Of a stretch of 64,000 bases of DNA, positions 5,621 through 64,000 are shown one piece after another. Positions within the stretch are counted from its first letter, which is position 1. Each line of letters starts with the position of its first letter. Position numbers and translations under genes: made by a program. The stretch lies in assembly GCA_019096195.1 (NCBI GenBank), contig JAGTXK010000126.1:62001-126000 (forward strand), given 5' to 3'. The notes under the pieces are model-generated. The model saw nothing but the letters and a program-made list of their open reading frames with translations. It did no database searches and was not told the origin of the DNA. This DNA comes from Boletus sp. NGJ (lineage: Eukaryota; Basidiomycota; Agaricomycetes; Boletales; Boletaceae).

Positions 5621-5756
5621 GTGATTTTCTTAAACTTACATTGTTGGACTCATAGTGGACCAGCATCAGCCAGGATCACGCGATGCTACCATTTCACTCA
5701 GGCTGAGAATACCCGCATGGATTTTGTGTATTCGCTCTGATGGAGGTGACTCAATG

Positions 5757-28789: not shown

Positions 28790-28949
28790 CTACAGGTATT
28801 ACATCGAACTACCCGTATCAATCCGTCTCATCGTGTGCACCTGAGCGAATACATAACATCCACGCGGGTAACCTGACCGCAACGGTAGCATCGCCTGATG
28901 CTAATCCACTATAAGTCTAACAATGTAAGCTTAAAAGGATATCTTGCGC

Positions 28950-30095: not shown

Positions 30096-30114
30096 GTCAA
30101 ATTGCACAAATATT

Positions 30115-30381: not shown

Positions 30382-30740
30382 CATCAGCAAATCCATGATT
30401 TTGCCACAGTGCCATGGTGGCTACAGTGCTGTACAGTACTGTACAGTGGCTACAGTTGAGGTCAGGCACTAACAATATTTGTCCTATAGCAAAATTAATC
30501 ATTTTTAAACACTTTTGGTGACAGTGGGGACCTAACTGTACCACTGTAAATCACTATGCCACTGTACAGGCAGTACCAGTTAGGTCCCTACTGTATAGTC
30601 ACATCAAAAGTGCTTAAAAATGATTAATTTTGCTATAGGACAAATATTGTTAGTGCCTGACCTCAACTGTAGCCACTGTACAGTACTGTACAGCACTGTA
30701 GCCACCATGGCACTGTGGCAAAATCATGGATTTGCTGATG
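30382..30740. repeat. long inverted repeat (foldback) with about 160-base arms
   Basis: The left arm (30,382 to about 30,540) is the reverse complement of the right arm (about 30,577-30,740). The first 130 or so bases appear identical, including an inner GTACAGTACTGTACAG palindrome; the inner ends differ by a few changes and a small indel. The loop is about 35-40 bases. It looks like a foldback or MITE-type element; the DNA or its transcript would form a very stable hairpin. Confidence 0.9.
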
Positions 30741-41200: not shown

Positions 41201-43354
41201 AGATTCATCCCCTCTGGGTTAAAGAAGTCAATGTGTAATGCAAATGTGTAACAACCTTTGTCACCTTTGTTGATAAACAGCTTCCCAGGCTCTGGTCCTT
41301 GAAATTTACGTAGAAATTGTGCATCAAATGGATCATTGACGAAGCAAGGCAGAGGTGAAGAAAGAGATTCGGCAAGCTTGTCGCATGAGTCATCCATTGC
41401 CACCTTGATATCAGCTCTGGAAAGTAGATTGGCAAGGTAGTCATTGAACTCATGATAAGCAAACACTTTCTTCAGCTGACCATTGTTACAGTCACAGGAG
41501 GAGGTACATCTTTTCCTCTCCCTTCACCCCCCATGGGACTGTGGGACAACTTATTCTTCGACTCGGACCAGGGATTCCCCCACAACACCAACTCAGGCAT
41601 TGCCCCATCTAGAACTCCCTTTCTAGAAAGTTACCTGTTTGGTTTGGACACCACCTTCCTATTTTATTGATACATGCATTTCATTCTTTTGATCTGATCA
41701 TAGACATTGCCTCCTCAGCTGTGCTCTCTCATGCACAGCCTAGTATTCCAACTTACCATTTGACTGATGCCTTAATCTCTTATGGTAATCTTCTGTCTAC
41801 AACTTATGATTACCATATATGATATGAAGCCTGCCCTAGATGGGCAGGGCCTATATATAGGGACACTGGCCCTTCATGTAACTCTAACCTAGATCTACAC
41901 AACTTCCTGTGTAATCTATCCAGCTTCCCCAGCTTTTGGTTCCACATTATCTTAGAAGCTTGCTCTCACTCTGGAGGTGATTGCTCTAGTGCTCATAATC
42001 ATCTTCCTCATCACTGTGCACTTGTGTGGCCTCGTTACCATCTGTACCCGCTTCTAAAGCCTCAGCAACTCCAATGCCAACAGAGGTTGGCCTGTATAAG
42101 CCTGGGACTCTGCCACCGGCACTAGGCTGTGTAAGCCCAGGACACTTAGTCACTGGCCTCTGCATTCCAGTCTGCCCTTCCTTCTAGGAGGATTGTGCCA
42201 CTGTGGTAAATCCGAGACTTCACCATTGGTCATAGAGGCAACCAAGGACACTCTACATAAAGCTAGCAGTCGGTCCCCAGTCCGAGGAATCATTGGGCCT
42301 TGGGAGGTATTTCCCCCTCAAGTCCTGCTAGTCCAGTAATCAAACAGGGTTGATTACTCGGGAATGTGTCACATTGTTATCTGGTGTAACAACCATTGCC
42401 ATAGGGTTTCATGTCTAGAAATGGCTCTTCACACTCAAACTCTGGAGTTGGTCGGTGTGTGCAGAATTCAGGGTATTTTGGGATGGTGGAGGCTTCAGCA
42501 TAAGTCAGTTCATATGTACAGTGACAACTGCAGACTGCATACACAACAGTCTTGCAATGAAGTTGAAACCAGGGAAGCATGATCTTAACTGCTTTGCAAA
42601 GTTTAACCAAGTCTTTGTTGATGGAGGCAAAGGGTTCATTGGAAGGATCTAAAAGGAGATGACAACATTGCTGAATGTGAGAATCAATGTTAGACAATAT
42701 CTTCAGTGCCTCTGTTGTACATCGATGGCGATCTTTCTTGTCTACTAGCTGGACCGGTGGAGGTGACAGAGTGTGTAGTATTGGGGAATTGGTGACGACG
42801 GAGCCATTAAGAGCAGTATCCATCCAATGCACAAGATCTTCAGCAACAGCATTTCAAGAGGGTACATTTTGCAATACAAGGTGATTCATGCTTTCGGTGA
42901 TGTTGGGTATAGAGATTGGTTTGAGATTGCTGTTGATGACATTTCAACTAGGACCTGCAGCCTGAAAGCTGGCATAAGAATCCCACAGCTTGTTGACCTC
43001 AGGGTTCAAGTCTGGCCCATTGTTGGTGAATGTTAGTCTGAACAAATGGTTAGCCAGGTCATCTGTATCAGACGGAACATTTGCGCATGCCGGATTTGTA
43101 GTGGATTGTGGTAGCATGGATTTCACATGCTGCAAATGAGCAGGGATGTGTTGTGCTTCCATGAGCACTCCATTGGAGCTCCTTTTTACACACTCTTCAC
43201 AAGTACAACATTTGCAAACGATATAGGCAGGCATAAATCTGAAGAGGGTAAAGTAAGAAAAACTACCAGTGAGGCTGAACGAAAGGACCCACCAACAATG
43301 ACAACTTGTAAGACAGAGATTGGGTGGTAGAGGTGTGGGAGTGCACGCCGACAA
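38297..43354 (-). mobile_element. Plavaka-type (CACTA-class) DNA transposase, decayed
   Basis: DDE-class transposase family widespread in Agaricomycetes. In minus-strand order: an N-terminal zinc-binding segment (CKCCTCEECVKRSSNG, about 43,230), then CTHRPTPEFECEEPFLDMKP (about 42,400), a stretch with LRKFQGPEPGKLFINKGDKG, LHIDFFNPEGMNLRGASI and NLNHYIHPLIDNMVTFWD (41,014-41,466), and ELWQLLYWDPSSQLVIDSIH with CILEGLVQYH (about 40,640). ITLISLWGTSNSDFKPILDH, CAWTMSSEQATKYR and a C-terminal region to 38,297 follow. The likely catalytic acids are the Asp in HIDFF and the Glu in CILEG, with an Asp in PLIDN; this is inference from the family. Several stops and frameshifts, notably between 40,717 and 41,013, make it inactive. 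A solo LTR (41,484-42,391) sits inside the coding sequence. Confidence 0.85.
41484..42391 (+). mobile_element. solo LTR, family S (copy 2), inside the Plavaka transposase
   Basis: 908 bases, TGTTACAG...GTGTAACA ends, flanked on both sides by the 5-base duplication ACCAT. A CTATATATAGGG promoter-like box lies near 41,850-41,861. It splits the transposase between the DMKPYGNG and FAYHEFNDYL segments, so it inserted after the transposon was in place. A fossil LTR left by recombination; no internal parts. Confidence 0.9.
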
Positions 43355-43837
43355 TACAGAATTTAAAAGGACATCTCATTCAAGACAAGTGAATACAAGG
43401 TCGTCATCCCGGAAGACGGGCAGGTGAATAATGATTGTTCAGGAAATGGCTAAGTCAACAAATACATATGCCATTAGCAATGGTGTGACTAATGGATATG
43501 GATTTGGCATACCTGGGCCTTGCTACTGCCAAGGCTTGCATCACATTCATGATATGCAAGACTTATGATGGACTAGCATCTCTGGAATTAGTCTTTGTTG
43601 TTCCATATATAATAATAGATAAACTCACTTCATCATCACCTTATATTTTGACTAGTGACTGACAACTAGCGACTGACAACAAGCTGATAATCCTTTGTTT
43701 TTCTTCACAATTCTATCTACAGCCAGATTAACATTGGCATCTAATTCATAGGTCGTCTGGTCCTCATGTTGCTAGTAATCATACTAGGAAAGTAAATGGA
43801 GCAGAAAGAGTTGCGAAGTGGACAGTGATAGGCTTAA

Positions 43838-43985
43838 ATAGTGAACCAAACTCAGCTGGGAGAAGCCAACTTATATAAGTCCACATTGTCACCCAGAAGA
43901 AGCTAGCCACTCATGTGAGTGCCAAACTTGGTTCACTACATCAACCTGTCGATTTCTCAAGGTTGCCTTTCCCCTCTGGTCTGCA
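43838..43985. repeat. palindromic AGTGAACC module (copy X)
   Basis: Begins AATAGTGAACCAAACTCAGC and, about 80 bases on, has the near reverse complement GCCAAACTTGGTTCACTACA, then ATCAACCTGTCGATTTCTCA. The same module is at 57,225-57,385. It lies about 490 bases upstream of the Plavaka transposase's first frame. It may be a terminal repeat, a MITE or a divergent promoter. Confidence 0.7.
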
Positions 43986-44599
43986 TGTTCTTACTACTTG
44001 GGCGCAAGATGGAGCATGGCAAAAAATATCAGAGGTGCTAATCAGGCATTGTTGTTTGTATCCAATTACCTCCACCCACTGTTTATGTACAATATTATTT
44101 TACTGTTGCATAGCAATGAACAACAATAGAAACATAAATGGATGCCATTCTCAATGCTATAAATTGGATATTGAAGCCTATTAGTGATTCCAAATCAACA
44201 TCCTCAGTATGCCTGCAACTACTAAAATGACATCAGTTCTGGCATTCTACATTACTAGTAAACCTCTCTACACCATTCCTGTGCTGGTCTCCCAGATGGA
44301 GATGTTCCATCAGCCAACGGATCTCATAGTTGTATCTGCAACAACAGAGATGTGCATTACATTGAAACTCCATCCTCCACACAGCACACCCCTGCAGCTA
44401 CTGGGTGACCATGCTAGTACACTGGCATTACAGGCAACAAGCCTGTCCCAATGACAAAGAACCCAATTCCTGGAACTGCAGACTCAGCCATTTAAAACCA
44501 TAGCATTTTTAGAGCCTAGCAGATCTTGTGCTGCTTCTGAACAACTGGAAACTCCATTGCCACTGTTGTCACCATCACCATCAATGTGTAGTCTATCAT
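43986..44599. other. stretch between module X and the chromovirus
   Basis: Short frames only (for example 44,209-44,454 +), none recognised. The chromovirus insertion interrupts this stretch, which resumes at 51,433 (both sides share ATCAT). Confidence 0.4.
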
Positions 44600-45077
44600 T
44601 GTTATGATATGAATATTTTCAAACTTTTTATCTCATTCCTTACTTCTCACTTTTTAAACTGTTTTCCCAATCAAGTCATGTGACTGTGCATGTGACCATG
44701 GAAACAATCACATGATATGGTCTAGAACCTATAATGTCATATAATATCATATCTCATGTGATCCATGACTCTTTAATCTCTGTCTTTCCCACACAGCCCT
44801 ATTAATTTCCATCTTACCATATGTAGTAAATTATCACACGCACAGCATGGTCCGTGCATCATCCCTATACATATATAAAGTAGACACTTGACAACTGGAA
44901 TCCCCAGTCTAATCCATTTGTACTTTTCCTCCAACAACTCAGTGCCTTGACCACTCTGGTCATTGTAGGGTTGGGAATAGTGTGAACAACAACTCCCCAC
45001 CTTATTTGTTAAGCCAGGACTCATGTAGTATGCAAGCAGCCAAGCCTTGTGGTGTGTTCTGTGAATGGTTCATAACA
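44600..45077 (+). repeat. 5' LTR of the chromovirus
   Basis: 478 bases, TGTTATGATATG...TTCATAACA, with a TACATATATAAAG promoter-like box near 44,867-44,879. Pairs with 50,967-51,432. Confidence 0.92.
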
Positions 45078-48000
45078 CTTGGATTAGACTGTATACACAA
45101 CACTTGGACTCCAGAGCTAAGAAGACTTTCGTATATGCAGGCCCAGCATTAAGGGACATCTGCAGTCTTCACCGCTTGAAGGTGACGAGTATAGTACTCA
45201 GTGAAATACTAGCTATTTATGCTTGTCCAGTGTCAATAATACAGATAAAGTTACTGCTGGGCATAGTGCACTAGTCCCCTTTCTCGAGTGGGTGCTGACT
45301 CGAGTGTACATTGGTTTCTATGATAGTGGACCCAGGTTCTTGTGATCACCCGTAATGTCACAACTAACGAGGGTAGTATTCCCTTATGCCAAAGCCAAGT
45401 GGATCTGGCTCCTCCATCGTCATCATTTTTAATGACCTCTACTTTGATTCATATGTAGGCACCCCAGAATCTGATTGTGAGATACTGGGTAGTAAGGTGC
45501 TGAAAGAAGCCCAACCAAGGAAAATCTACAAGGCAAACCCTGATAAGCAGAGACTCCTATGACCTTCCTCTGCTTTCGCATTATATCACATTGCAATCCA
45601 TTGCCCTTATCTCTGACCAGTCTCTCTTCTTAAACCCGTAAACAAATATGTCTCACATGGACCTCGACGAATTAGTCGCAAAGCTCACAGACCTCACACT
45701 TGAGTGTGACAAGGACAATATTACAAAAAGGATCGCTAACCCTGGAAAATGGAATGGCAACCGCACCACCTTCCAGAGTTGGTGGGTCAAGTTGCATCTT
45801 TGGATTGATGCACAAAAATGGAAATCCAACAAATATTTGTGGTAGCTGTACTATCATACCTTGAAGGAAAAGCAGAAGGATTTGGCCAATTAATAATGGA
45901 ATACTACCTGGAACAGGAGGACTTCCAGAGGACAGACAAAAATGGCCATTTCCTCCCTGCTAAAGGTGACAGTGCATGGCCAATGTGGAAGAAAATGCAA
46001 GAAGGAATCTGCGCTCACTTCTGCATTGACATGTTGGCACATGAGTCATTAAAGAAGTTAGAAGTGCTAAAACAGAACAGGCATCCAATTGACCAGTTCT
46101 TACAAAAGCTTCGAAATATTGCACAAGGAATCCATGATCAATGATCATCACACCCTTGTCCTTATAACAAAGGCTGTAGACTTCAAGATCTATAAGAGAT
46201 CTTGCTTGAATAACCCTGTAAGAGACTATGAATATAAGGACATAGTGATATCATATAGAGTCATTGGAAGAGCATTCAAACAAATGCAAACAGAACATGG
46301 TCCTCCCCTCACTCCTTCATGCTTTACTCCCTGTTCACAATACCCTCCTCTGCATGGGCAGCCCCCACAGCATCAATTTACAGCAGTAGGCACTCAACCA
46401 GGCCAAGGTGCCTCAATGGATATCAATGTCCAGCAGGCTAGACCATTGAAAGACACAAGAACTTGTTTCCATTGTGGGAAGCCAGGGCATATAAAGCCCA
46501 ATTGCCCTACCAACCCCTATCATTGTACAAGCCACCCACCTCAACAAAGGCAAATGATTTGGGACTGGAACCAAGATGCTTACATGGCACAATCAGGAGA
46601 AGAAGAGTATCCCACATTTTTTAACCAGTCTCAAAATCGTCAACACTATACTGGACAACCACTTCCTACTCCTCCCGTCGCTGTGGCGGTACCAAATGCA
46701 GCACAAGGTAGAGCTTATGTTTTGGAAGAAGCGGAAGCATATTATAAAGACAAGTTTGAGGTGGAAGCCAAAGCAAGAGCAGCTGAGGCTTTAAATGGAC
46801 AACACCAATGAGTGTCAAGGAAACTCGGCAGCCTGAACAATTTATGAACAATTTCTTTTCTTCTTTGATAGACTACACAGAATCTGATTTTTCTATCTTC
46901 GACATGTCTTCAGTTTTATATAAATTATATCTGCAATCTGAAAGAGCGTCTCTATCAAGCGTGGCATCAGAATTAAGTGTGCTTAATTCCCTTATGAAAC
47001 AGCAGAAGATTTCTTCTATCTATAAGCCCACAAAGGTTACTTTAAACCAAGCATTGATCTTGTCATTCAGCAGAGAGTTTTCGCTCGAGATGGTCATAAC
47101 ATGCAAGGTTAACAACCAGTGGTCGCGTTACCAGTTCAAATCCCTCTTGGATTCAGGAGCATCACATATCTTTATTGATCAGGACTATGTCACACATCAT
47201 GGCATTCCTTTCTACATATGACATCACACAACCAATTAAGATACATAACACAGACAGTACAGAAGGAGCTATCGGACCTCATTCATCACACAGTAACCCT
47301 GATCACGGAAGTGCAAGGACATTATGAAGTCATAGATGCTTATATATCTAAACTGGGCGCTCATTGTATGATTATTGGGTATGACTGGCTTTACTGCCAT
47401 AATCCTGATGTTGATTGGGTTAACCAAACAATCTCTTTTCCCCATTGTACATCCTACTGTAAAGTTATGGAACTAGGACCTTCATCTTCATATATGGCAG
47501 TTAACCTATGTACTATCAAAGAAGGACTCAAAGAAAAAGTACCACTAACCTATCATGAGTCCCTAGACGTTTTCTCTGAACCAGAATACCCCTAAGGAAA
47601 CATTGAGATCATGCCATAGATCTCAAAGAAGACTTCATGCCAAAAAAGGGATGCATCATACCACTATCAGACGCAGAAATGGAAGAAAGAAGTCAAGAAG
47701 GGATATATCAAACCTTTGAAATCTCCACAAACATCTCCAGTTTTCTTTATTCCAAAAAAGGATGGTAAAAAACGAATGGTTATGGACTACCGGTATTTAA
47801 ACGAAGGAACTATCAAGAACTCCTATCCTCTCCCCTTAATTCCTCAGCTAATTGACAGGCTCAAGAATGCTGACATGTTTACAGCAATGGATCTCCGATG
47901 GGGATACAACAATGTCTGTATCAAGGAAGGAGACAAATGAAAAGCAGCATTTGTAATGCCTATTAGAGCATATGAACCAACAGTAATGTATTTTGGCTTA

Positions 48001-49893
48001 ATGAACTCTCCCCCCACCATTCAAACCATGATGAATGATATCTTTAATGACATGTATATGGTGGTAGTTATCTAGATTGATGATTGTATGATATTTACTT
48101 CTGGAAAGTCCAAAGAAGAACATGAGGAGGTTGTCAAGGAAGTTCTCCGTTGCTTGCATGAGAATAACCTACACGTAAAACCAGAAAAGTGTACCTTCTC
48201 CGCAGACAAAGTGGACTTCCTAGAAATGGTAGTATCTAAAAGGGGGGTAGAAATGCAATCGAAAAAGTGGCTGGGGTCATGGATTGGCCAATTTCCACTA
48301 GATTAAAGCAACTCCAAGGATTCCTTGGACTATGTAATTATTATAGGCATTTCATCAAAGGCTTCGCTGAAATCGCATGCCCTCTGAATGATCTTATCAA
48401 AAAAGATGTTCCATTCAAAGGAGACCTGATCAACAGAAGGCCTTTGAAACTCTAAAATGAAAATTCATGGAAGCGCCACTTCTCGCATATCTAAATTGAG
48501 ACCAAGAAGAGTGCGTGAAAACTGATGCTTCAGACATTGCCATGGGAGCTGTGCTCTCTACTTTATGCAAAGATGGTAACTGGCAACCTATTGCCTTTAT
48601 CTCTCATTCTTTTGATAGCACAGAGCGCAATTATCCTATTTATGACAAAAAATTACTTGCAGTGATTTGGGTGCTGGAAGAGTGGTGCCATTATCTTATT
48701 GGGTCGAGACAGATTTGAAATCTGGACTGACCACAAGAACCTCAAAGACTGGAAGAAGCCACAAACCCTTAGTGGTCGTCAAGTATGCTGGCACACGCTT
48801 CTTTAAGAATTTAACCATTTCTTTGTCTATAAACCAGGACTATCAAATGGTAGAGCTGATGCTTTATCTCGTTGACCTGATCACGGTGATGCTGTGGTTG
48901 ACCACAATCAAAATGTCACTGTTCTTCCTCCTTCTATCTTTATAAACAATATTTCTCTTTCTTCTGATTTCTTTTCTACTTTACAAAAAGAATCCAAAAA
49001 ACTAAATGTTGATGTCATTAATAACTTTCTCTTCTATTCTGATATGAATATTTTCGAAAATGAAAACAACAAAATCTTTGGTCCTGAATCACTACGTACA
49101 AAACTCTTAACTCTATGCCACAACTCTCCAATCACAGGTCATGGAGGACATTCCAAAACAATACATACACTCTCTTGTTATCTCTCATGGCCAGGAGTCA
49201 CAAAGGATGTAAAAACATATGTAGATCACTGCCAAGTATGCACCCTCACAAAGGGTAAGCAAAAGGCACCCACAGGTAAAATTATTCCACTTCCTGCAGT
49301 CAAAAAACCATGGGAAGACCTCTCAGTAGACTTTATCACTGGTTTACCACCTTCACATTCATTCATGGCTATCTGCATGTAATCGTTGATCGATTCTCCA
49401 AAGAAGTCATATTTATTCCCACTTACAATACATGTTCTTCTAAAGACTTAGCTATTTTATTCTAAGACCATGTCTGGTATACACACAGACTCCCTTCTAC
49501 CCTCATTTCAGATTGAGGACCCCATTTTGTCTCTGTGTTTACCCACGAACTTTGCAAGTTACTTGGTGTTAAACAAAAAATATCACCTGCAAACAGAATG
49601 AATGGGCAGAATGGTTGAAATTAACTGAATTCTCTCACAACAATACTATCACAACAGCCACTGGAGAGATACCCTTCAATATCACATGTAATTATGCACC
49701 ACGCATGGCATTCAAAGGAAATCTTGTTGGCTTTGTGGGAGAAGTCAGTCAAAATCACAAGGAAATAGAAGAAGCGCTTGAAGCATCATGTGAGAGGATG
49801 ATCACCTCTTTCAATAAAAAATGTTCAGAAGCTCTGGAATATTCTATTGGTCAGCAAGTCTGACTGTCTACCAATAAATTAAAACTTCCATCC

Positions 49894-50467
49894 TGTTACG
49901 ATTTGTCACTATATTCATCTTTTCTTTCATTCTCTTCGCTGTCTCCACTTATCGGATCATACATCAACCAGTCCAGGTCTTTATTGATGCTTCTACCAGT
50001 TCCCCTTGACCCTACTGATCAATTACTGTACTTTTATAACTCATACAGAATCCCTTTTATTTCCACCTTCACTTCCATGGGATTTCACTGGTTTCTATGT
50101 CTTACTTATCCATTCCCATTGCAGCTCATAGGCTCTCATGCCTTATGTATATAAATCCAACCCCAGATACAATGTCTGCTAAGTAGAATCTACTTGAATC
50201 TACTCTCACATTGTCTCCAGGATCTCTATGAGTCCTCATCCTACTCTTGACTGGACACTTGTCCTTTTAAACCATGTGAACTCAAGTAGCTACTCTAGCT
50301 ACTCACCCTTGTGAGGCTCTTCATAGTCCTCAACCTCTGCGAAGAAAGACCCTCTGCATCTATGTCTCCAGTGGTCCTCAACACTGCTCATCTTTTGTCG
50401 ACATCACCTAGTTGGTGTGTGTCATCCTTCAAGTCAATGACCACCTCTACCTGAGTCAGTCGTAACA
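49894..50467 (+). mobile_element. solo LTR of another family nested in the chromovirus
   Basis: About 574 bases, TGTTACGATTTG... to ...GTCGTAACA, with flanks CATCC and CATAC (a 5-base duplication with one change). A TATATAAATCC promoter-like site lies near 50,147-50,157. It differs in sequence from both the host LTR and family S, so a third LTR family is present. It inserted after the chromovirus did; fossil. Confidence 0.8.
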
Positions 50468-50966
50468 CATACACAGCAAAGAAATTGACACAAAAATGGA
50501 TAGGACCTTATAAAATCACTCAAGTCCTTCCAAATGTAGTAACACTCAAATTACCCAAATCTATTCACATACATCCAACTGTGAACATCTCTTGTGTCAA
50601 ACCTTACAGAGAAGTGCTGCCTGGACAGCCAAAATCTTGTCCAGATGTGATTGAGATTGATGAAGAGGATAAGGAGCAATTCAAAGTCAATTTCATAGCT
50701 GCTTCCAGAATGAAGAACAGAAAGTTAGAATATTTAGTGCATTGGAAAGGGTATAATGAAACAAATCATACATGAGAGTCTAGTGACATTATCAACACCA
50801 CACTAGATGCAGTTCAAAACTTCCATAAACAAAACCCTTCCACACCACAAAAACTCAGTGGACTTTCCACTGCTTCATTTGCTTCACTATTTATACCTTA
50901 TGAAAACCTCACCAAAACCATGTGAACTATGACTCACCTGGAATTCAAGTTCTAAAAAGGGGGTAG

Positions 50967-51432
50967 TGTTATGATATGAATATTTTCAAACTTTTAATCT
51001 CATTCCTTACTTCTCACTTTTCAATCTGTTTTCCCAATTAAGTCACATGACCATGGAAACAATCACATGATATGGTCTAGAACCTATATTGTCATATGAC
51101 ATCATACCTCATGTGATCCATGACTCTTTAATCTCTATCTTTCCCACACAGCCCTATTAATTTCTGTCTTATCATATGTAGTAAATTATCACATGCACAG
51201 CATGGTCTGTGCATCATCCCTGTACATATATAAAGTAGACACTTGACAACTGGAATCCCCAGTCTAATCCATTTGTACTTTTCCTCCAACAACTCAGTGC
51301 CTTGACCACTCTGGTCATTATAGGGTTGGAAACAGTGTGAACAACAACTCCCCACCTTATTTGTTAAGCCAGGACTCATGTAGCCTGCAAGCAGCTGAGC
51401 CTTGTGGTGTGTTCTGTAAATGATTCATAACA
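50967..51432 (+). repeat. 3' LTR of the chromovirus
   Basis: 466 bases, same ends as the 5' LTR, preceded by the purine tract AAAAAGGGGG near 50,954. One small gap (about 12 bases) and roughly 25 substitutions separate it from the 5' LTR. Confidence 0.92.
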
Positions 51433-52199
51433 ATCATCAATTGAATCTGATAGTGCAAAGATACCAAAACCAAGGGGTGAAGTTGAAAGGCCTGGACAAG
51501 ATGGCTATAATCTGAAAAATGAACTTGGATGGGACAAGGCAAGCTTCAAGACACTGTAGGTAAGACAGAGTCCCAGGGGTGGAGGTGGGTAACTCACCAC
51601 TTTATCCACAGAAGTTTGTCTATAGGGTAATTAGGAAATGCCTGGACAAAACAATATGTAGGAGCATGCAAAGTCACGACACAATAGAAAATATGAAAGC
51701 AACAGTGAGTGGAAAATAACTCATGACAAACAAAGATAACATGAAGTGCACAGGTCTTAAGCCACTATCTTAAACTCAAATATTTCCAAAATGCATGGCC
51801 AGTGTTTGATCTTATCCAACTTTGATTGAAGTATACATTATTGAGAGGTCGGTATAAGGAGAGAATTAGTGTGGGAATACTGAAGGAGCTGAAAGGGAGG
51901 GTGAGGAGGTCTGCAAAGTAGTACCTCCTATATCTATGGTCATCCGAATCAGCAAATAGTCAAACAGTGATCGCATTGCTAATAATTGCTTGCCTTGATT
52001 GCACACACCAATCCCTGTGAAACAGATCAATTGTGGGGTGGCATTTCTTCACCTTGTGCATTGAGAAATTAGCAATTGGAGACAGCAACTATACATGAAT
52101 ACAATTACAATGAATCCCATATCTTCAACTGTAATTGTACAACTCAGTGAATAATTACAATGGTTGGATCATCTCCTTCCACTCTCCAGGAATTGCATA
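51433..52199. other. AT-rich stretch right of the chromovirus
   Basis: Continuation of the sequence interrupted at 44,599. No frame I can support. Confidence 0.5.
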
Positions 52200-52740
52200 C
52201 ATTCATTTTGCTATGCCATGGTTAACACATCCATGTTCTCGGAGTCTGATGTAAACATGCACTGGTCAATGTAACCGGCTCGCAGGCACAAAGAATGGGA
52301 ATGGTGCCATCATCCACGCTGTCAAAGCCATGGAAAATAGCCTTTATGACCCGGTGAAGCACAGCCCACAGGGTAGCTGGAGGATTGGCCTATGATATGG
52401 ATGAAACACTGATTAGGAGTTCTGAGTCAAGAACTCACTGGTTGATTTGGATTTGGTGAAGGATAAATTGCAGGCACACTCAGACAAGGCATGATATCCA
52501 TGTCCACATCCACATCACTGCTACTCATACTCACTGTTGAATGATCCATGATGTCCTTCAACACTGGCTTCTTCTTTGTGCAGGTGGCCCAATGAACTAC
52601 CTTGCAGATGTCAGTTATGAGATGCTGGATATGTTCTTCAGCCAATGCTTCCTGAGAATTGGTTGCATTGTGGATGTCAGTTATTAGATGGCAGATTTAG
52701 TTCTTGGTCAATGCCTTGAGTTTGGTTGTGATGGTTTTCA
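52200..52740 (-). CDS. hypothetical protein fragment, unrecognised
   Basis: Minus-strand frames suggest two exons. About 52,427-52,645 contains ITDICKVVHWATCTKKKPVL and a Ser/Asp/Met-rich part. About 52,225-52,390 contains NPPATLWAVLHRVIKAIFHG and then DDGTIPILCACEPVTL. The composition looks coding, but there is no family match and the joining intron is a guess. It lies downstream of the SPT5-like gene on the same strand and may be a separate decayed gene or part of the same unit. Confidence 0.35.
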
Positions 52741-53093
52741 CAGTCTGAAAGAAGATAGCATGTTAGTTATGATAAAAGAAGGACAAGTCACTGCTTACAG
52801 AACAACAAGAATGAGGTCCTACTAGGTCATCAGACCCCATGGCTGGAGAGGGGTAAGAATATGATTTTGGATATCACTGATAAGGCAAGAATCAAGAAGG
52901 AAGGCTATTGTGTTGAGTGGATTGCACCTTCATGGTAATCAGGATAAGTTGGATTCCTACTAAGTAAGTTGAATGAGAGTGTGTAAATAGGGTAAGGGTA
53001 ACAATAGGTTTGAATTACATGACAACAGCATAACAACTGTTGGTCATCATAATAAATGCTGGGCAAAGATTGTGAATGGCTATTGTGAAAAAT

Positions 53094-56000
53094 TTAATCT
53101 AGACTACTACATGCTAAGCAGACATCGCCAGTAGCAATAACAATCCTGCTGTGCTCCACAGAATCTACAACTGTTATCTGTTCCTTCCTTTTCCATTGGA
53201 AAACACAATAATACTGGCATTGTAGCAGATCTTGGAGAACTAGAACTACTTCACCCTTTCTAGTCAGGTTGGCCGGAGTGAGAGATGATGCAGGAACATT
53301 GTGATATTGAATTTCACCTTCCGAATGATTGGGTGTCACAGCGAGGGAGACATGCCCAGCAGGTGTAGGTCCATTGGATCCACAGAAACAGTTTGGGCAT
53401 GTCATAAACATTACTCGCTTGCTGAAGCTACCTCTAGCATAGTGAGCATCAATGTTGAATGACAGGCTATGACGAGAAAAGTTGCAAAACTGGTCATCAA
53501 AAAGCCATCACATGCAGCCTGGATTACAGAATTTAAGAAAAAGAAGCAAACAAAACAAAAGAAATTACCCATGTTGATAACTAGCTGCATAGGTTGTACA
53601 AGCTGAGTAAGACCTTCACTTGTTATTTTCCATGCACTGTTGCCTCCACCGTTGTTCACACTGGACAAAGATGCCTTAGGTAAGAGAGGGGGGATTCCAC
53701 ATTGTGTGGTTTCGACAATGAAAGATCATTTCCTGAGGAGGTTGAACTGCTTCAGGAGATCGCCAAAGAGCATAGTCCCATCTAGTCATATTCCTAAACT
53801 ACAACACAGTTAGTTTTTATGAGTGAAAAAAAAAAACCTATTCTATGCACACATCATGAAGTTTCATTGAAATACCATGGTAGTCTGGTAAAGAGACCAC
53901 ACAGGAATTATAACATATTGACCACAGGGTGGCTCAAAAACCCTTTTTACTCCCCCCAATCACCCAGACATCATGACTGATTGAATTTGTGACCTTCAGA
54001 GGAGAGTATTCAATGATTTTCATGCAAAGCTGAATTGCAATGTTGATCTAAGCTGTGTGAGCAATTTCAACAATATGAATGAAGCACAGGAGCTTACTCA
54101 TTGGGCATCAATGTTAGACACCAACTCCACTGTACCATGTGGGAAATCCAACTGTCGAACAATACCAATGGTGCCACAATATTCACTCCTTACAACTTGC
54201 AATGTGTCTCCTAAGGTGACATTGTAACCCTTGTCGCTGAAAGAGGTCAATGCCTGCAAATGTCTCAAAGCCACAACCTCATCAGAATGGATGATCAACT
54301 TTTCCAATTTATCTCTAGGGTCTGGAATAGTGGAATTAATCCACATCCAGTCTTTATCAGGAAATATCCAATCAATTACTCCCTGACGCCCAGTATGTCA
54401 TCCTTTCACAATCGACACTGAGTCTCCCAACATTGGGATGTTGAAATCATTTTCAGAGGAGTGAGACTTCTTGATGTCCAGACCAGAGTGATGCAATGTT
54501 AGTGACACTACATGCCTGGACAAGTGGATTTCTAAGAATGTAGATGGGATGGGTATCTTTGAGGCAAGAACTTAGTGTAAATAATTTCAGAACTGGATAG
54601 ATTACTTATGATGTTCAGATCCTGTTTGACAAGTAATGTAACGATGTCCTTGGAGCTGCTGAGGACCATCTCAGCAGATCCATAATGGACACCAGCAAGT
54701 ACTTTCACTTCATCACCATATCTGAATACCCATTGAACATCTATGATTGGTATGTCATACACAGCTGGTGCCACATCAATATCTGCCAAGGCAATTTTTA
54801 TAGAACTGTGCTCAACATCGAGAGATATGATTGTTGTTCTTTTGCCCACAAAATCACCCATTTGGCATCAGACAAGATCACCTTCTTTCCAGAATTGGGC
54901 AGAAAACAAAAGGTGGGAATGGGTGATCAGATCGGAGTTTACCTGTGCTTCAACATGAAGGGCAATTTGGTCTGGATGGGGTATTGTAACACTCCTGAGG
55001 GAGCTCTTGGCAAATGAATGCCTGAGGAGGCCGCAATGATAGTACAGGCCCTTGCATCTGAAAATACTGTCCTGATGTCTGAAAGATAGTACTTTGTGAC
55101 CTGCATTTGAGGCAGAGGTCAGATTGAAAAGTCTCTGGTCCCTTCATTTTTCAGCTATTACCTGCAGGATGTCATCTTTGTCAATGACATCATAAGGATG
55201 CTCACATGGAACAACAAGCACATCTAAAGATGTGTCATCGCCACAGAGAACATATGCAATATCATTGTGATACAATCCTTGTTTGATACGAACCCACAAA
55301 TTGAAAGGAATGGCATTGACATTTGACAGTTATGTAGTGTATTCGTTGTTGGGAAGATGAACTATGTCTCAGATTGCTCACTTGTGGGACCGTGGGATAT
55401 GATGGTGGATATTGGTGGGGCTGACTGCTTCAACATAAATTTTGAGGCTCATGAAGAGCACCTTCTAAACTTGCAGCCCTTGATCCTTGAGATGCTTGTG
55501 CATGAAGTCCACCACACTGTCTAAGAAGGGCATAAGAGATATGAAAAATAAAAAAAAACATAGCACAACTTACTCATAAAAAAATCAACCACATAAACCT
55601 GATCACTCTGAGTTGGTGGAAATATATTTAAGTTGATCAGAAGGGTCGATGGGTCTGTGCTTAAGCCTACCAAACCATGGTGTTGACGATTTTCATAGCA
55701 CTCAATGATGCTGTCCAGATCTTTGGCATATGACACCTGCCCTATGGATCTGATTGTGGTCACATGAATGCTATTGAGCTCTGCATCATAGTCATCCTCT
55801 GAGCTATTGCTACCTTCAGAGGCCGCTATATTGACAAAAATGGAACTGATCTTATGCCACTTTGCAGAGCGTTGGTATTTCTCACTCAACAGGCAAGTGT
55901 GGCGTAAGTGAGGTGCTTGACGTCTGATTGGAAGCAACCAGAAACACAATGCAATGCTTGGCCATGGCATCTTCCAAGGCCTTGAGAGGCTTGGGCACCC

Positions 56001-56644
56001 CGCTGTCTACCACTAATAGGTCAATAGTGTCATCCTCTAGAGAGGATGCATTAGATAAGGTGTCATATGTGGCCTGCCATTTCTTGTAAACAAAATGTGC
56101 ACCGAAAGCCTCCATTTGTTGGGTCAACTCAACAAACTCGAAGCGACCTTCTGCCCAATTTCGGAGCAACTCCCATGCAGTAATATCCACAAGCAGAAAT
56201 GTTCCAGGGGCTAGAAACATGTCAATTTACCATTACTATGATATCACCCCAGAATCATACCTTGACCAGGCAGCATGATAGGTGACAATGAGTGAGCTGG
56301 GCGACTGGCTGATGAATCCTGATGCTGCAATGAGGGACCTGGAAATATTATTAAAGGTGCACCAGGGTGTTAATCAAACAGGGTTGGAAATAAAGATTAA
56401 CATGATACTTACTGGCAGCCAGGAACTCAGTATTTAAACGCTGCTTGAATTCCTCAAAGCCTGCTGTTTCCATAAAGGTGATAAATTCAATCATGTCCTC
56501 CCAGTGGCTTGCAACAAATTCTTGGCTGGTGCAAGCTACCTCTAGCTTGATTGTTGCCAGAATGGTGGTAGAGATGCATTTTTCATTAGCAAAGTTCTCT
56601 ACAGCAGCTAGTGCAGCTGGAACAGACATTGTGGAGGTGATCAT
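53094..56644 (-). CDS. SPT5-like protein with several KOW domains, probably decayed
   Basis: In minus-strand order: an N-terminal exon around 56,351-56,644, a segment with FLLVDITAWELLRNWAEGRF (56,100-56,220), an acidic segment (SEGSNSSEDDYDAE), then KOW-type elements. These are NLWVRIKQGLYHNDIAYVL (about 55,240-55,300), YGDEVKVLAGVHYGSAEMVL (about 54,660-54,725), GDTLQVVRSEYCGTIGIVRQ (about 54,150-54,210) and a C-terminal Ser/Pro segment with SSLTPANLTRKGEVVLVLQD (about 53,225-53,285). The WVRIK-G-Y-D-A and GD-V-G patterns are typical of SPT5 KOW domains, which bind RNA polymerase and nucleic acid. This is not the housekeeping SPT5: it is divergent, split into many exons and surrounded by transposons. 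In-frame stops near 55,335-55,345 suggest decay unless an intron removes them. The role is unknown. Confidence 0.55.
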
Positions 56645-57224
56645 GAGCTGAGAGATATCTGGCTGGTATATTGTGGCAGAGATGGGTAGTGCTTTGAAGT
56701 CGGTGGATGGTGGTCACAGCTGTTGTCAAGAACAGAACTTAGCATGTGAACACATGCAATGTGTGGAGTTATGTATGTTCCACAAATTGTGGGGATGCAA
56801 ACAATTGAGTATGTTATTGTCAGCACCACAGCATCTCACCTGCCTACATTTTGAGAGACAGCATTCTTGTGCGCGACAGGCTACTGCTACAGCTACTATG
56901 GTGACGGATGTAATGTATTTTCAAAACACAAAGTGTATTCCCCAACGGGTCGCTATGGAGTGGATGCAGGATGAGTAGCTTCGAATGAATTGATATTGCG
57001 AATCAAACTTACTGCAGGCAAGCCCAACATCACTAATCAGTTCCACACTTGTTGAGAAAATGACTAAGTAGATAAATACGCTGTCAGTGACAGCAGGGTC
57101 AACATATATCATAGAGAGTGTATACCATAGAGGGTGAAGACTTACTTTGTGAAGACACTGCCAGGAGTAAGCAGAATAATGTGGGAAGTGGGAAAGGGTA
57201 CAAAAAAGTGGTGAGCAGGTAGAT

Positions 57225-57385
57225 ATAGTGAACCGAACTCAGCCCGGGAGAAGCTGGCTCATGTGAGTCCACACAAGTCCACATTGTCACCCAGAAGAAG
57301 CTAGCCACTCACGTGAGTGCCAAACTCGGTTCACTATATCAACCCATTGATTTCTCATGGTCGCCTTTTCCCTCTTTCCGCTCTT
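57225..57385. repeat. palindromic AGTGAACC module (copy Y)
   Basis: TATAGTGAACCGAACTCAGC at the left and GCCAAACTCGGTTCACTATA at the right form an imperfect inverted pair about 115 bases overall, followed by ATCAACCCATTGATTTCTCA. It matches the module at 43,838-43,985, with an 11-base insertion. It lies between the minus-strand SPT5-like gene and the plus-strand gene at 57.8-59.9 kb. Confidence 0.75.
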
Positions 57386-57789
57386 CCACCACAATTAACC
57401 TTTACTGTAGTGGTTGGTTGTACCAGTTGTACCGTAAATCTAAATATTCATGCTGTATAGATGGTGAACGTGAACTCATTAATGTTGCGCACTGCACTGC
57501 CATCCACCTTGCCTACAGGAAAGTGACAGGTGTGTTGTCTTTTGGTTCTTTCTTGTACTCTTATCATGCAGTTACTAAGTTATGCTGTTGCTATTGTTAG
57601 ATACGCTGGGAGACTTTGTGCTGAGACAATTAGTAGGTACGTACTAGGAGTGTCTTTTTGCTCTATGTCATCTCATTTTTTGTTTCAGCTCATTTTTTTG
57701 TTCATCTTAAGTGGGTGCTATTGGGCACTATGCTGAATGTATATTACTGCACACCTGCAGAATCATTGATGATGTATAACAATGTCGTT

Positions 57790-59942
57790 CCATCCTCACC
57801 CCAACCCTGACCATGCAATGATGCCTGGCACATTGTCTACACTTCCCAATTCTGAAAATGTATAGACCGTTACTCTATTTGTGGACAACAATGCAGGTAC
57901 AATCTTAGATGCTAACTGTGATCACAAGATAACGCTTCAGCTAGACCCTGATCATGCAATGCCTGATGGATTGCCTACACATCCCATTTCTGAAAATGTA
58001 CAGAGAATTTCTGAAGATATTCTATTTGTGGATGACAATGCAGGTACATTATTAGATGCTAACCATGATCATTAGATAACACTTCAGCTAGACACTTCAG
58101 AAGTGGATCACCAACTCTTAGGTCTGGACAGCATTGAACAGAACCTCATGGTTGAGCATACTGAAAATGGCAAACATTGCAATAATGACAATGAACACTG
58201 TGACTGTACCATAAGTTCTTTTCTTTTCTAATAAAAGCTATGTTGAATCTTCATTAGGTCAACAACTGATCAGTGAAATGCTGCTATGAGGAAGTGGATT
58301 ATTCTCATAACCTCAGAAAGGAATTATATGGCATTATAAAGGAGACAGAGCAGGTAGTGCCCTGTTTGAGATCAAAGCTACGAGAGCAAGGAGTGGTATA
58401 TTGGATGTACACACATTTCTTGACCAGCAGATCTAAAATTTCACTCAGGCATATGTGAAACTTCAACATGAATCTTGCACCCAATATGAAATAGCCATAC
58501 AAGCTACCCAATGGCAAATGCACAAGACTTAGGAGTTAGTTCTTCAGAAGCAAAGGTTGGAGTTTGATGAGTTCTGAAAGCAACTTGAAGTAAGTGATTT
58601 AGTAAGTTAATCAATTGACTGTTCTTGACATGAGGATAGATATAAGTGGTTGAAGGACTTTTGGTGCTGTAAAACTCAATCATTGCTTAGGACAATAAAG
58701 CACTGCATGACAGAATGCCATCAGTACCAGAAGGCTCTTCTAATGAGGAACAAGAAAGGGCCAATATGACACTATTTGTCTCTGCCATGGTGGAAGCTGT
58801 TATCAAAGGAATAGAAGCAGCTATCTGCAATGCAATGGTGAACAGAAAGTCATTCACTAGCCCCAGTCCCAAGCATATCGACAGTGGAGGAGGGTCAAAA
58901 ATGAAGAACTACAGAATGAGAAATCAATGGAACCGAGAGAGCATCGTGATTTTATATTGGTAAATACAACTCTTCTTACAAACCTGATAATAATTGACAA
59001 TGACTCCAGGGTGTAGTTTGCAGCCTTTTGAAGGAGAAGTTTGACATCATACAGGACATTTATTTTATCAACCACAAGCAAGCTTCTGCAGCAGATGTAT
59101 GAGCGTATGAACAAGAAGACAGCCCTAGGCCTGATGCAAATGCCCTTGCCTTCGATCTCACCCAAAATCATTCTTTGTTATAAAATGGTAAAGTTCTGGA
59201 TATCTTACTTTGTGAGCTTCAAGCACAGTGTGAAGAGCAAAATTGGCCGGTGAAAAAGTCAGACAATCATATCCTCGATGTCTTGCATGGCTGTTACAAG
59301 CAGCTCTGTACAGTATGGAGGAATGCTCAGCCAAAACTGAGGACCTTGGGCAGTTTGGAATTATCTACTGAAGTTGAGGCACAACTACTGGGTCAGAAGT
59401 TACAGATTGTGAAAGAAAGTCGACAAGCCACTTGTTGCTGAAATGTAAGTTATTTGGGATTATTAGGTTCAGGTACTAGTTATCATACCCAGAAATTCCA
59501 CTGCAGGATGTCGATTCTTAATCACACTGTTATCCTGAAGACTACAGATAATGACGACAATGTTCTTGCATGAGAATGGCTTCAGCATCTCATCTCAATC
59601 CTAGGTAAACATGGGATGAGTTCCGAAGACAGTGATGTGGAAAATGAGGTGGAAAGTGTACTTCAAGTCAAGAATATGACATAGTGGCACTGTGTCAGCA
59701 CTGAATTGGACATTGTGGACTTCCAGTGGGCATTGGATGCTGATATATTTGCTCCACAGGGTTCAAAACCAGTCAAAAGGATACATGCATCCGCCAATCC
59801 GCTGAGCTGCAGGGATGTGGTTGAAGGCTTACTATTGGCTCTATATGATTCTGTTTGGCTGGAAGGCCTTACTCAGCATCAAACAGATTGCTTGGCCATA
59901 TTATATAGTGACTTCCCATGGATGAAATTTGCAGTAGCTTGA
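57790..59942 (+). CDS. multi-exon hypothetical protein with HGMSSEDSD motif, probably decayed
   Basis: Plus-strand exons with clear protein-like sequence. A tandem-repeated part at 57,804-58,095 has DNAGTILDAN and DDNAGTLLDAN. Then come SHNLRKELYGIIKETEQVVP (58,300), NMTLFVSAMVEAVIKGIEAA (58,765), KSDNHILDVLHGCYKQLC (59,257), GKHGMSSEDSDVENEVES (59,600), and the end with DADIFAPQGSKPVKRIHASA and NPLSCRDVVEGLLLALYDSV to 59,942. From memory, the (D/H)GMSS(D/E)(E/D)SD motif followed by a P-x-R and W-L-x-L C-terminus recurs in many Agaricomycete hypothetical proteins near transposons; no function is known. In-frame stops (for example at 58,072-58,074 and 58,456-58,458) may be intron or decay. Confidence 0.5.
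57804..58095 (+). repeat. two-unit tandem repeat of about 141 bases within a coding region
   Basis: Units 57,804-57,944 and 57,945-58,095 share ACCCTGA(C/T)CATGCAATG, TCTGAAAATGTA and GA(C/T)AA(C/T)GCAGGTACA blocks. Together they encode a duplicated acidic segment. Confidence 0.75.
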
Positions 59943-62640
59943 ATATAGGCCATTGTATTCATTTATGTAAATCTACACCAGCCATCAAGTGACTCATCAT
60001 GTACCAAATTCGGTTCACTATATTCACAAGGACATTTCTCACAAACACTTCTTCCACTCTGGTGGTACAAAGAATGCTCGTCATCAGATTTTTAGATTGA
60101 AGTACAATATCATGTCATTCAAGAAAACTGTCTATTGTCATCAGCTACAGATCAGCAGGGTACAATCCTTTATAACACTACCTAATCCCATTTCACCAGC
60201 TCCAGCCCAACCATTGCTCAGCTCCTCTGCATGGCCAAAACCCAGAGGTGCAGACACCCAATTGTTCTTCTTATGCCCCATCTCATTTATCAGCATACCT
60301 ACTCCATGCACTGTCTCTGAGTGCTGCTTGACTGGAACTTTGATCTGTCTCTTGCTTGTCTCCTATCTTTCTGGCTGGTGATGGTGCATCCACCTTGATG
60401 CTTGGAACATGTCAACCTCTATGCCCTTGTAATCAGGAGTTTCGAATTGTTTCTCTACATGAAAGGTGTTGTTGACTTCAATGCCCTTAGGAACTGGAGT
60501 TCTGAAATGTTTCTCGCTTTCCCCCTGTCATCCTATCTTGTGCTGCATCCACTCTAATGCTTGGGATGTGTTGTTGACTTACCGTTACGATATCCATGCT
60601 TGTTCCATATATTGAAGAGACTATGCACAGGTGAGCCCCATTGTTGATAATTCTTTATGATGTTAGATGATTCCATTGCTCAGATGAAACGACTCACCAG
60701 AGTTTGGGATGCAAGAAGCATCATGATCATTCTGATTGCTAACAGTTGAATCAAGACCTGCACAAGTGTTCTGAGGATGCCCCATCCAGTTTTGAGTTCA
60801 TTGTTGATTTCTCTAGTCGAATGTATGTGCTTCTTCCAAATGCTGATTTTAACATTACTCTCATTGCTAGAGGATGCTGCAACAACAAGGAAACAATGAT
60901 CACCTTCATGCACCTTTGACTCTGTTAGTGGTTGTATAGCTTCATACCATACTTGAAATGCTTACTAATATTGTTTGCACTCACCCAGTGTTCAAGTGAT
61001 GCAAGGTTTGAATCAACTCTCCACTTCCCTTGTTAAATATGAACACCTTTTCATTTTCCCCACTGCCCACAATCATGTCACACTACTCAGTGAAAACTAC
61101 CTGCTTAGAATACATCTTTGTAGGCTTTGTGTGGTACATTCAGATACATGTTCCATTGTCCAGATGATGTAGACTAAACCCAGTGACAGCATTGTCGAGA
61201 TAAAGTAAGTACAGGATTGGTCTACCACTGCTCCACCACTAATGATACTGTATACTATAAAATGCAAGCAAGTATATGGGCAACATAAATCATTCTATCT
61301 GTTGACTGTGTTGTGACGATAGAACCATTCCTACCCCTAAGGGTGTAGCTGATTGAGACTCGGATAAGTTTAAGCTTAGTTATTGTCTGAACTGGCTTAC
61401 ATTTCTCCATCATACATGCCAAAGACTATGACATCTCCACCATGAAAATACAATGTCCATGGAACCATAGAGGCAAGTTCAATACTGAAGATATAGGATA
61501 CTGGATAAATTATATTTGAAATCAATGGACTAGAGTTGAACATGCTTGTTGCGAGTAGCTATTAGGACATGGGGATTGGCTCTGATGGCTTCACAGGTAA
61601 GATGCATTATTTCCACCCTAGTGCTGATTCTTCTTGACTAAACTTCTGCAAACTCAGCAACTGCATCTCTACACTGTCCCCATATGATGACATAACCAAG
61701 TCCTATTCCTGCCAATAGGGTTTTCTAAACATCATCTCTCTGAGTCAGCCATGCTATGCATATAACAGGTCATGGGAATTTTGCATCTCATTGAGCTTCA
61801 GGGCTTGGATCCATTGCTGCAAATCCCATATTCATAAACCATCAATTCCTAAGTGTAGTTAGTTGTACAACATTTCCTTAGCAAGATTTTGCTCACCTCC
61901 ACTCGCCAGTAGATTTCCATCATGTGAAACAGCAAGGCACAATATGGCATCCTGATGACCTGTAAGCCTAGTGTCAAGCTTGTATTGATTGGGAGTAGAG
62001 AATTGAAAGAACATTGATGAAGTGTTGTTGATGAATGGAACATTGGCTTATAAGCATCAGGCTCACAATGGTGCTTGCAACACTTTCTCTTATTGTTTCT
62101 CTTATTTTTCTTATCCAATTGATAATGGTATGTTGCCAGGATGCTAACTCACAATACTGCCTCTTATTGTTTTCCTTAGCACTTACAATGAGCCTGCCTC
62201 CAATCAATAATGGTACATTGCCCTTGTAAATTATATTATTAGTGAAAGATTTAGGGAGGTTTATTGTTTGGCAATGGTGGGTTGTCCCAATTTGGCCTTT
62301 CCCAGCTGAGTTCAATTCACTATATTAATCTCACCTCAGCCAGAATGCAAACTCTTCCACCTACACAATAACAATGTATTAGGGGGGTTGGTGTTGTCTC
62401 TGTTAATGACCATAACAATAAGATCTATGCATGAAATGAAAGAAGACAATAATGCATATGATTGGTGATAAGAGTTAAGTAGGGTTAGTGTATGATGTCA
62501 TCTCTGTCTCTATTGATGACTTGTTAACAATAAGATCGATCAGGTACTTAACATGAACGGGTGGTCAATATTATGAAAAGACCTACTCACTTCTCTTCCC
62601 AGATCAGTATTCAGACATGAATCACAAATCTTCACTGGCT
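59943..62640. other. AT-rich stretch with half-copies of the AGTGAACC module
   Basis: 59,980-60,042 matches the right half of the module (CCAAATTCGGTTCACTATAT...CATTTCTCA). 62,294-62,330 matches the reverse complement of its left half (CCCAGCTGAGTTCAATTCAC). Between them are imperfect repeats at about 60,370-60,575 (TGCATCCAC...AATGCTTGG twice; TCAATGCCCTTAG-GAACTGG). No gene is supported; the frames are short. Confidence 0.5.
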
Positions 62641-62649
62641 GAAGTCTCT

Positions 62650-63360
62650 TTGCCATTTTCTCATTCATCTGTATGTGCCAGTTATGTCTTCTTCCAAGTA
62701 TTCATTAGGCCTCAGCCATGTAGATGGGAGGCTCTCATGTTGGATCTCCTCCCTTCTCCACAAAGCATACACAAAAGAAAAGCTCATTTGAGAGCCAAAG
62801 AGGAAGATCTGTCATTGGTTGCATCTCCAGCCAATAGATTTTCATTTTTATTATCCCTTTTACACGTATGTGTGCACCATGCTTTTGTCTGAATATGCTC
62901 CATATGATCCCAGCTGTATAGACCTGAAGTGATCAAAACAGACCCCCCTTCTCCAAAGAGCATTTGCAAAAGAAAGGCTGCATCTCCAGCCAAAAAAATT
63001 ACTTTACCATTTTCATTCTCCCCTTCACGCGTACATGCACACTATCCTTCCTCCTAAATATGCTCACTTCAGTTGCAGTCATGTAGACCTGATGCATTCA
63101 GAGGAGATCTCCTACTTTATCTGAAGAGCATGCGCAAGAGCAAGACTAATGCCAGAAGTGGCAACAATTCACCCACACCTTTGGCAAAGAAACTATATCA
63201 CTCAATCAAGCCAACAGATTCTCTGACTCTGACTAGCATGCACAAGAGGAAGGCTAACTTCAGAAGTGAGAAGGATTTACTGTCACCCAGTCCTTCGGCA
63301 AATAAATTATGTCGGTTATGTGTATATGCACTGCACACCATCTTTACTGTAGATGCTAAC
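62650..63360 (+). repeat. about four tandem units of roughly 190 bases encoding a KRKA motif
   Basis: Diverged units each carry an (AAGAGC/AAAGC)AT..GCA(A/C)AAGAGGAA-type core followed by TCNCCAGCCAA. Translated, the cores read SIHKRKAHLRAKEEDLSL, SICKRKAASPAKKITLPF, SMRKSKTNARSGNNSPT and SMHKRKANFRSEKDLLSPSP, each followed by P(S/L)A(N/K)(R/K). Linking blocks with ATGCTC(C/A)...ATGTAGACCTGA also recur. The frames shift between units, so this is either a decayed repetitive gene or several exons of one. Confidence 0.6.
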
Positions 63361-64000
63361 ATAAGATACAGCTGCTCCCCGAAGATGGTAGTCACTCAGT
63401 GAGCAGAAATGCACACAATGGGCTACATCTGCAAATGGTGAGCACTTCATCTGTTATATATACTGCCTTCACACCTTAATAACTTATAGGAGTGCATGCT
63501 TTGGTGTCTTCCCAACAAGCTGCTCCTTCAGATCTCAGAAGAACTCAGCAAGGAATCATCATGCAAGCTATTCCAGGTTTGCAAGCAGCTGCAGAAGATC
63601 GCAGCACTGCACTATTTCACTAAAGTGAACTTTTGAAGCCCTGACATAACTGGATGGCTAGAAGTGATGGAGAGAGGCCTCAAAGTGCTTTCTCTTTGAT
63701 GATGTACTAACACATTTGTAGTCCCAAGAGTCACCTGGTTCTCTATGTCAGGAGAGACAACTGACTGGGAATTATGTACCCTTGGGACATTCTTTGAATC
63801 CCTACAAGGTCTTGAGCCAATTCAATGTGTATATCTCTCTCTTTATTCAGCTCTATTTGGAGACTCCCCAGCACTTCAATTCCTATTGAAAAGCATCCAG
63901 GCATCAGGGTGTGAAGCACTGTTCTGTCATGGCACCCGATACATGATTGCCAAGGCATGCATCAATGACCATTGCTCTACCTCGACCTGCCCCAGCAACA
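63361..64000. other. AT-rich end of window, no gene supported
   Basis: A plus-strand stretch near 63,775-63,960 reads FESLQGLEPIQCVYLSLYSA and on, with a helical, amphipathic look. No family is recognised and the frame is cut by the window end. Confidence 0.35.

Follow-up and report, generated by a model that had tools for sequence, protein, structure and literature searches.

Known systems and the present element

In the usual description, a CACTA-type element consists of a transposase and few passenger genes. Fungal EnSpm (CACTA) elements of the CMCT clade have CAC..GTG termini and a 3-bp target duplication, and their transposases resemble Plavaka proteins (PMC12730594). In the passages covered of that paper, EnSpm families carry a TET/JBP gene, and its main text does not mention SPT5, F-box or WD40. 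The same passages give Plavaka termini as TGT..ACA or CATCA..TGATG, with a 3-bp duplication allowed for PlavakaB. In maize MuDR the terminal inverted repeats are the promoters of both element genes (PMC8224964, in part). In VANDAL elements the anti-silencing VANC proteins act on the family's own non-coding repeats (PMC10398659, in part).

The element described here spans 27.8 kb and carries at least six genes, including a transcription elongation factor relative, a WD40 gene and an F-box gene. A repeated cis-element, which we call the module, links them. A literature search, limited to the parts of the papers covered, found no such fungal multi-gene cassette. We suggest, at a probability of roughly 0.68, that the module is an internal bidirectional promoter/operator common to the genes of one multi-gene CACTA/EnSpm-like transposon family.

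Data and searches

The window is the whole stretch of DNA that was analysed, 64,000 nucleotides at C11:62001-126000 in a 32.8-Mb genome of 141 contigs (written as C and a number). All genome-wide counts come from this one genome. The gene models are rough and were used to locate exons, and the Pfam scans covered selected ORFs of the element. Features are listed in Table 1, in window numbering.

Table 1. Features of the element and its modules
Feature	Position	Strand	Remarks
3-bp target-site duplication TAG, left copy	38030-38032		right copy 65799-65801, outside the window
DNA transposon, CACTA/EnSpm-like, CMCT clade	38033-65798		27.8 kb, nested Ty3 included
Left terminal inverted repeat	38033-38935	+	partner 64902-65798, outside the window
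Plavaka/EnSpm-type transposase, several exons	39457-43375, outer limits rough	-	Transposase_21 (tnp2) match
Open pieces of the transposase	42944-43375, 42377-42853, 41014-41523, 40108-40767	-	ORFs
Repeat of ~0.9 kb interrupting the transposase gene	41484-42354		inverted related copy 32903-33874
Full palindromic module 1	43838-43977		between transposase (-) and gene Z (+)
Gene Z	44209-51873	+	MPAT... start at 44209; split by Ty3, resumes 51431-51556, 51745-51873
Nested Ty3-type LTR retrotransposon	44600-51432	+	~6.8 kb, LTRs
SPT5-like gene with KOW similarity, multi-exon	53097-57112	-	5' limit from rough gene model
Full palindromic module 2	57225-57375		between SPT5-like (-) and HGMSS (+)
HGMSSEDSD (HGMSS) gene	57400-59940	+	motif in ORF piece 59574-59681; exon structure uncertain; conserved with C133
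One-sided module arm, facing right	60001-60041	+	no clear gene start there
WD40-repeat gene	60683-62047	-	PF00400 in 61862-62047, E 1.4e-6, above cut-off
One-sided module arm	62306-62330	+	between WD40 (-) and F-box (+), faces F-box gene
F-box gene	62400-64000	+	start uncertain; conserved to ~64.8 kb, beyond the window end

Limits of the element

The right end of the element lies at C11:127798, 1798 bases beyond the window end. The termini are CACAACA..TGTTGTG, and the joints read CCTAG/CACAACA at 38033 and TGTTGTG/TAGGAG at 65798. The inverted ends are 88.9% identical over 912 alignment columns. Both flanks, 37533-38027 (84.2% over 499 bp) and 65800-66098 (73.8% over 328 bp), match C133, where they adjoin each other at 261219/261215 and thus mark an empty site, with AAG at the position corresponding to the TAG duplication. 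It should be noted that this site lies in a related repeat and is no allele. An independent deletion derivative on C40 (837989-842263) has kept both ends, CACAATG..CGTTGTG, and is flanked by TAT on each side; inside it, window position 62683 is joined to 39289. The limits are firmly placed. Because of the inverted ends, the 3-bp target-site duplication, the empty site and the C40 derivative, the transposase, Z, SPT5-like, HGMSS, WD40 and F-box genes and the modules of the window all lie within one mobile element.

The sequence-only reading had seen a CACTA-like terminus embedded in the module and had offered the modules as ends of CACTA-class elements. We reject this, as the ends were found at 38033 and 65798: GGTTCACTA is no end, CACAACA and TGTTGTG lie well outside the modules, and the modules are internal. 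The check for target-site duplications that it had proposed turned out positive, with TAG at the window element and TAT at the C40 derivative. The modules could also be the ends of several smaller elements lying side by side, each with one gene or gene pair, and a 15-kb block on C60 and C140 is indeed bounded by modules. We consider this highly improbable, since the C60/C140 similarity goes on beyond the outer modules, the ends, duplication and empty site of the window element are elsewhere, and the C40 derivative joins both ends.

Searching the genome with window 38028-38950 gave 26 matches, of which 17 are confined to the outermost 56-88 bases. These 17, together with 20 terminal motifs away from full-length ends (for example C114:278234 (+) with 278495 (-)), are spread over many contigs. 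Both sets are perhaps a family of small non-autonomous elements.

To the left of the element, a 359-bp palindromic element at 30382-30740 has 139-bp arms (99%), ends CATCA..TGATG and TT on each side. It is likely a MITE, and its ends fit the PlavakaB termini in the covered passages of PMC12730594. A long inverted similarity (74-91%) between 3700-6050 and 24300-30100 represents duplicated segments.

Gene content

Besides a Plavaka-type transposase, the element encodes at least five other genes. The transposase is provisionally called Plavaka from its motifs; the Pfam matches of the selected ORFs included no profile of that name. Its match to Transposase_21 (tnp2), E 1.9e-4, scores 21.1 bits and falls short of the 28.6 cut-off, and the spliced rough model gives E 0.0074. 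Transposase relatives are found at 12 places in the genome, the window's own included. Stretches similar to the 0.9-kb repeat in this gene lie at ~100.5-101.4 and 109.7-110.0 kb (window numbering), beyond the window end.

The N-terminus of Z aligns to a relative on C60 with a score of 81, the maximum of 5000 shuffles being 61, and its downstream pieces have matches on C40 and C60. The LTRs of the Ty3 element that splits Z are 92.5% identical over 400 bp, and Ty3 relatives are present on C133 and C23.

In the SPT5-like gene, ORF 54535-54867 matches the KOW region of yeast SPT5 (PDB 4ytl; E 6.2e-6). The Pfam scan of the SPT5-like ORFs gave no KOW profile match, and for an NGN domain, ORF 55524-56006 had no SPT5 match. 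Relatives occur at 9 places genome-wide, the window's own included, that on C109 being weak (E 3e-4) and containing stops. At other loci, SPT5-like genes are adjoined by WD40 relatives. The two matches run in the same direction, ~150-300 bp apart, on C81, C59 and C40, where they may form one fused gene; the genes are apart in the window and convergent on C60 and C140.

No Pfam family matched the HGMSS motif piece, and piece 59184-59438 of the same gene matched Cbl_N below the cut-off (E 0.031). The F-box lies at 63490-63633 (PF12937 F-box-like, E 6.7e-6, above cut-off). The part after it is conserved on C23 and C43 and matched no Pfam family. There was no TET profile among the Pfam matches of the selected element ORFs. 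Constraint by codon position was seen in 2 of 9 comparisons at an uncorrected p < 0.05.

Anatomy of the module

The two full modules share 91% identity across an ungapped core of 101 bp; with gaps allowed, the figure is 82% over 151 bp. A genome search with the first as query found the second at E = 9e-37 and one more on C133. The earlier observation that one module of about 150 bases occurs twice, upstream of the transposase (43838) and between the SPT5-like and HGMSS genes (57225), is therefore borne out. The same goes for the dissimilarity of the flanks, as the match is confined to the module in 601-bp stretches around both copies, and for the half-copies near 60,000 and 62,310, which are outward arms at 60004 and 62306. 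The first transposase ORF that was recognised lies 0.46 kb downstream of module 43838.

The left half of the module is GTGAACCRAACTCAGC and the right half is the sequence already dismissed as a terminus. Each full module has an inward-facing box, GTGAAYCRAACTCAG, with an inverted partner opposite. In the symmetric modules (C1, C27, C40, C43 and C81) the partner is the same box; the starts of the two are 46-113 bp apart, and C40 has one box more. The window's asymmetric modules retain, on the right-hand side, just the outer part of the box (GTGAACY or a close variant), which reads GTGAACC there. Outward of the boxes comes a TATATCAACC-like stretch or TTCACWATATCAACC, followed by pyrimidine-rich DNA.

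Aligned to their own inverse, the symmetric modules match over 196-311 bp, the window modules over 19 bp and those on C2/C35 over 21 bp; four end stretches on C60/C140 gave no self-inverted match. The long near-palindromes on several contigs might suggest that the modules are sources of hairpin or antisense RNA that triggers or blocks silencing. The window and C133 copies have also decayed with a bias to transitions, their 7750 aligned bases containing 902 transitions against 106 transversions (ts/tv 8.5). However, self-inversion is short or lacking in the window, C2/C35 and C60/C140 copies, and only 82 of the 902 transitions are in CpG context. Observed/expected CpG comes to 0.21 for the element, compared with 0.15 for the right flank and 0.80 for the left. 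Low CpG is thus common to the right flank though absent from the left, and CpG methylation specific to the element is therefore not established. We regard such an RNA source as very improbable.

The two arms of a module differ in type. Seven asymmetric modules have, on one side, a transposase or SPT5-like gene that runs away from them. In 7 of 7 it is the CTGAGTT-type arm that is turned to this gene, and the opposite, GATTTCTCA-type arm to the partner (window 43838 and 57225; C133 at 273 kb; C60 at 20.8 and 25.0 kb; C140 at 27.7 kb; C35 at 516.5 kb). This count was made by eye, includes several orthologues, and on C60, C140 and C35 uses approximate gene starts. Arm 62306 has the CTGAGTT type on the side of the F-box gene.

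Arm type also bears on another explanation, in which the modules serve as recombination or inversion sites within the element by which gene blocks are reshuffled, and lying at gene starts would be secondary. C40 and C81 have the SPT5-like/WD40 block in opposite orientations with respect to the transposase, the gene order on C60/C140 is unlike that of the window, and two C27 modules lie 0.56 kb apart with a joint in one. Such inversions are, however, possible at any inverted repeats, and arm type keeps to gene identity in all seven asymmetric modules. We find this explanation unlikely.

Module 57225 is 81-83% identical to the modules on C81 and C27 over 54-57 bp, the WD40 exon DNA there being ~65-75% identical. 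Sister modules within an element are 96% and 91% identical on C60 and 89% on C40. For module 57225 the C133 counterpart (85%) is a closer match than the sister (82%), and the C43 and C27 modules have their closest counterparts on other contigs. Homogenisation of modules within an element was considered as proof of co-regulation and rejected, the window, C43 and C27 being exceptions to any general rule.

An 830-bp stretch around a module is 99% identical between C2:23629-24458 and C35:516008-516832, with sharp borders and different surroundings. This points to a recent duplication or gene conversion.

Association of modules with genes across the genome

The looser search patterns were unspecific (64 matches against 45 in the control, and 10 against 2) and were replaced by two longer arm patterns, which gave 46 and 16 matches, each against 0 for the reversed control. 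One C133 arm is in both lists, so that the 62 matches are 61 distinct arms. These fall into 35 clusters.

The enrichment of modules around transposase and SPT5-like genes that had been proposed as a check is found, with WD40 included: 27 of the 35 clusters lie within 8 kb of a transposase, SPT5-like or WD40 match, and such zones make up 1.2% of the genome. Leaving out the window's contig, the figure is 23 of 31. The binomial p is 2.7e-45, which treats the clusters as independent, which they are not, and WD40 positions for the window and C133 are rough midpoints in this test. As to the other eight clusters, two on C133 and C109:620350 are in copies or fragments of the element, and those on C1 and at C23:1068 adjoin SPT5-like and F-box matches. 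Hence 32 of the 35 are at relatives of the element or its genes, the exceptions being C59:777 kb, C23:5.6 kb and C115. The association of module and genes is strong genome-wide.

This distribution decides against the view that the module came into this element family by repeated insertion of a stand-alone MITE or foldback element. The module is short and palindromic, and several copies are self-inverted over 196-311 bp, as would be expected of such an element. Against it stand the 32 clusters at relatives of the element (the 27 of the 8-kb test and five more) and the similarity between copies, which extends beyond the palindrome on one side and into the flanks. We reject the MITE as very improbable. 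Neither outcome named beforehand as refuting, scattered geneless matches or a stand-alone MITE, appeared.

Genes of the element also lie near one another: 7 of the 9 SPT5-like places have a transposase match within 16 kb (within 11 kb counting weak N-terminal matches, E up to 0.08), and 7 of the 9 have a WD40 match within 2 kb.

Position of modules relative to gene starts

In the window, divergent gene starts flank the modules at transposase/Z and at SPT5-like/HGMSS, and on C60 a module lies between the F-box and transposase gene starts. The 5' matches of transposases are 0.6-1.1 kb from modules on C43, C81, C140, C109 and C97 (the last three at E 0.03-0.05). The prediction that every transposase match has a module upstream failed on C40, C48 and C96, where none was found, at three of the four places read; the match on C97 has one, but this had already been found by the loose pattern. 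Some modules face the 3' sides of genes, namely WD40 on C81, C43 and C40, F-box on C43 and C23, Z at C60 20.8 kb, and transposase at C60 29.9 and C140 22.8 kb. The SPT5-like fragment on C1 runs in the direction of the module there. The gene order differs between C60/C140 and the window.

Proposed function

We infer that the boxes are bound by a factor and drive transcription. Since genes start outward on both sides of a module, one cis-element would switch a divergent pair, and the copies of the module would co-regulate the genes of the transposon. The sequence-only reading had proposed a family of mobile cassettes with a shared bidirectional promoter. Its anatomical part holds, with one element and a gene-module association that recurs, and promoter activity would be the natural reading of that anatomy. 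Several observations count against a promoter: the modules at 3' ends, the 60001 arm with no clear gene start, and the one-sided 62306 arm with CTGAGTT facing the F-box gene. The three of four transposase loci that have no module, the noisy loose patterns and the weak codon constraint (2/9) count against it as well.

Going further, we speculate that the transposon may have its own regulon, in which copies of one palindromic operator drive the divergent pairs. A putative factor encoded by the element, perhaps the SPT5-like protein, would read these copies and act in trans on members of the family, so that the host's silencing of the element is overcome. This extension is a tentative one and, in our judgement, rather doubtful. 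Should the module be a shared operator, one could test directly how several genes are coordinated by a transposon and how it perhaps counters silencing, and the module would serve as a specific DNA tag with which to look for such elements in related genomes.

Comparison with known systems

The SPT5-like gene resembles the SPT5 elongation factor in its KOW region (E 6.2e-6 to PDB SPT5 chains) and differs in being transposon-borne and dispersed. With maize MuDR, as far as PMC8224964 was covered, the element would have in common that one repeated sequence serves as promoter of the element genes, a role that is putative here. In MuDR this is the terminal inverted repeat, whereas here it is an internal module between divergent genes. 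VANDAL elements, in the covered part of PMC10398659, provide a model for an element protein acting on the repeats of its own family, the regulator being hypothetical in our case. They differ in being plant elements with tandem-repeat targets.

With Plavaka the element would have in common the transposase motifs and the 3-bp duplication, which PlavakaB allows. The termini CACAACA..TGTTGTG are of neither the PlavakaA nor the PlavakaB type. By the criteria in the covered passages of PMC12730594, these sequences fit fungal EnSpm better; the Plavaka label given at first is based on the transposase motifs. The window element and the C40 derivative both have the CAC..GTG termini and 3-bp target-site duplication of the EnSpm CMCT clade. 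The difference lies in the cargo, with TET/JBP in the EnSpm families of those passages and SPT5-like, F-box and WD40 genes in the window element. The element is thus of a known kind, a CACTA/EnSpm-like transposon, and its large multi-gene make-up and shared internal module make it a new variant.
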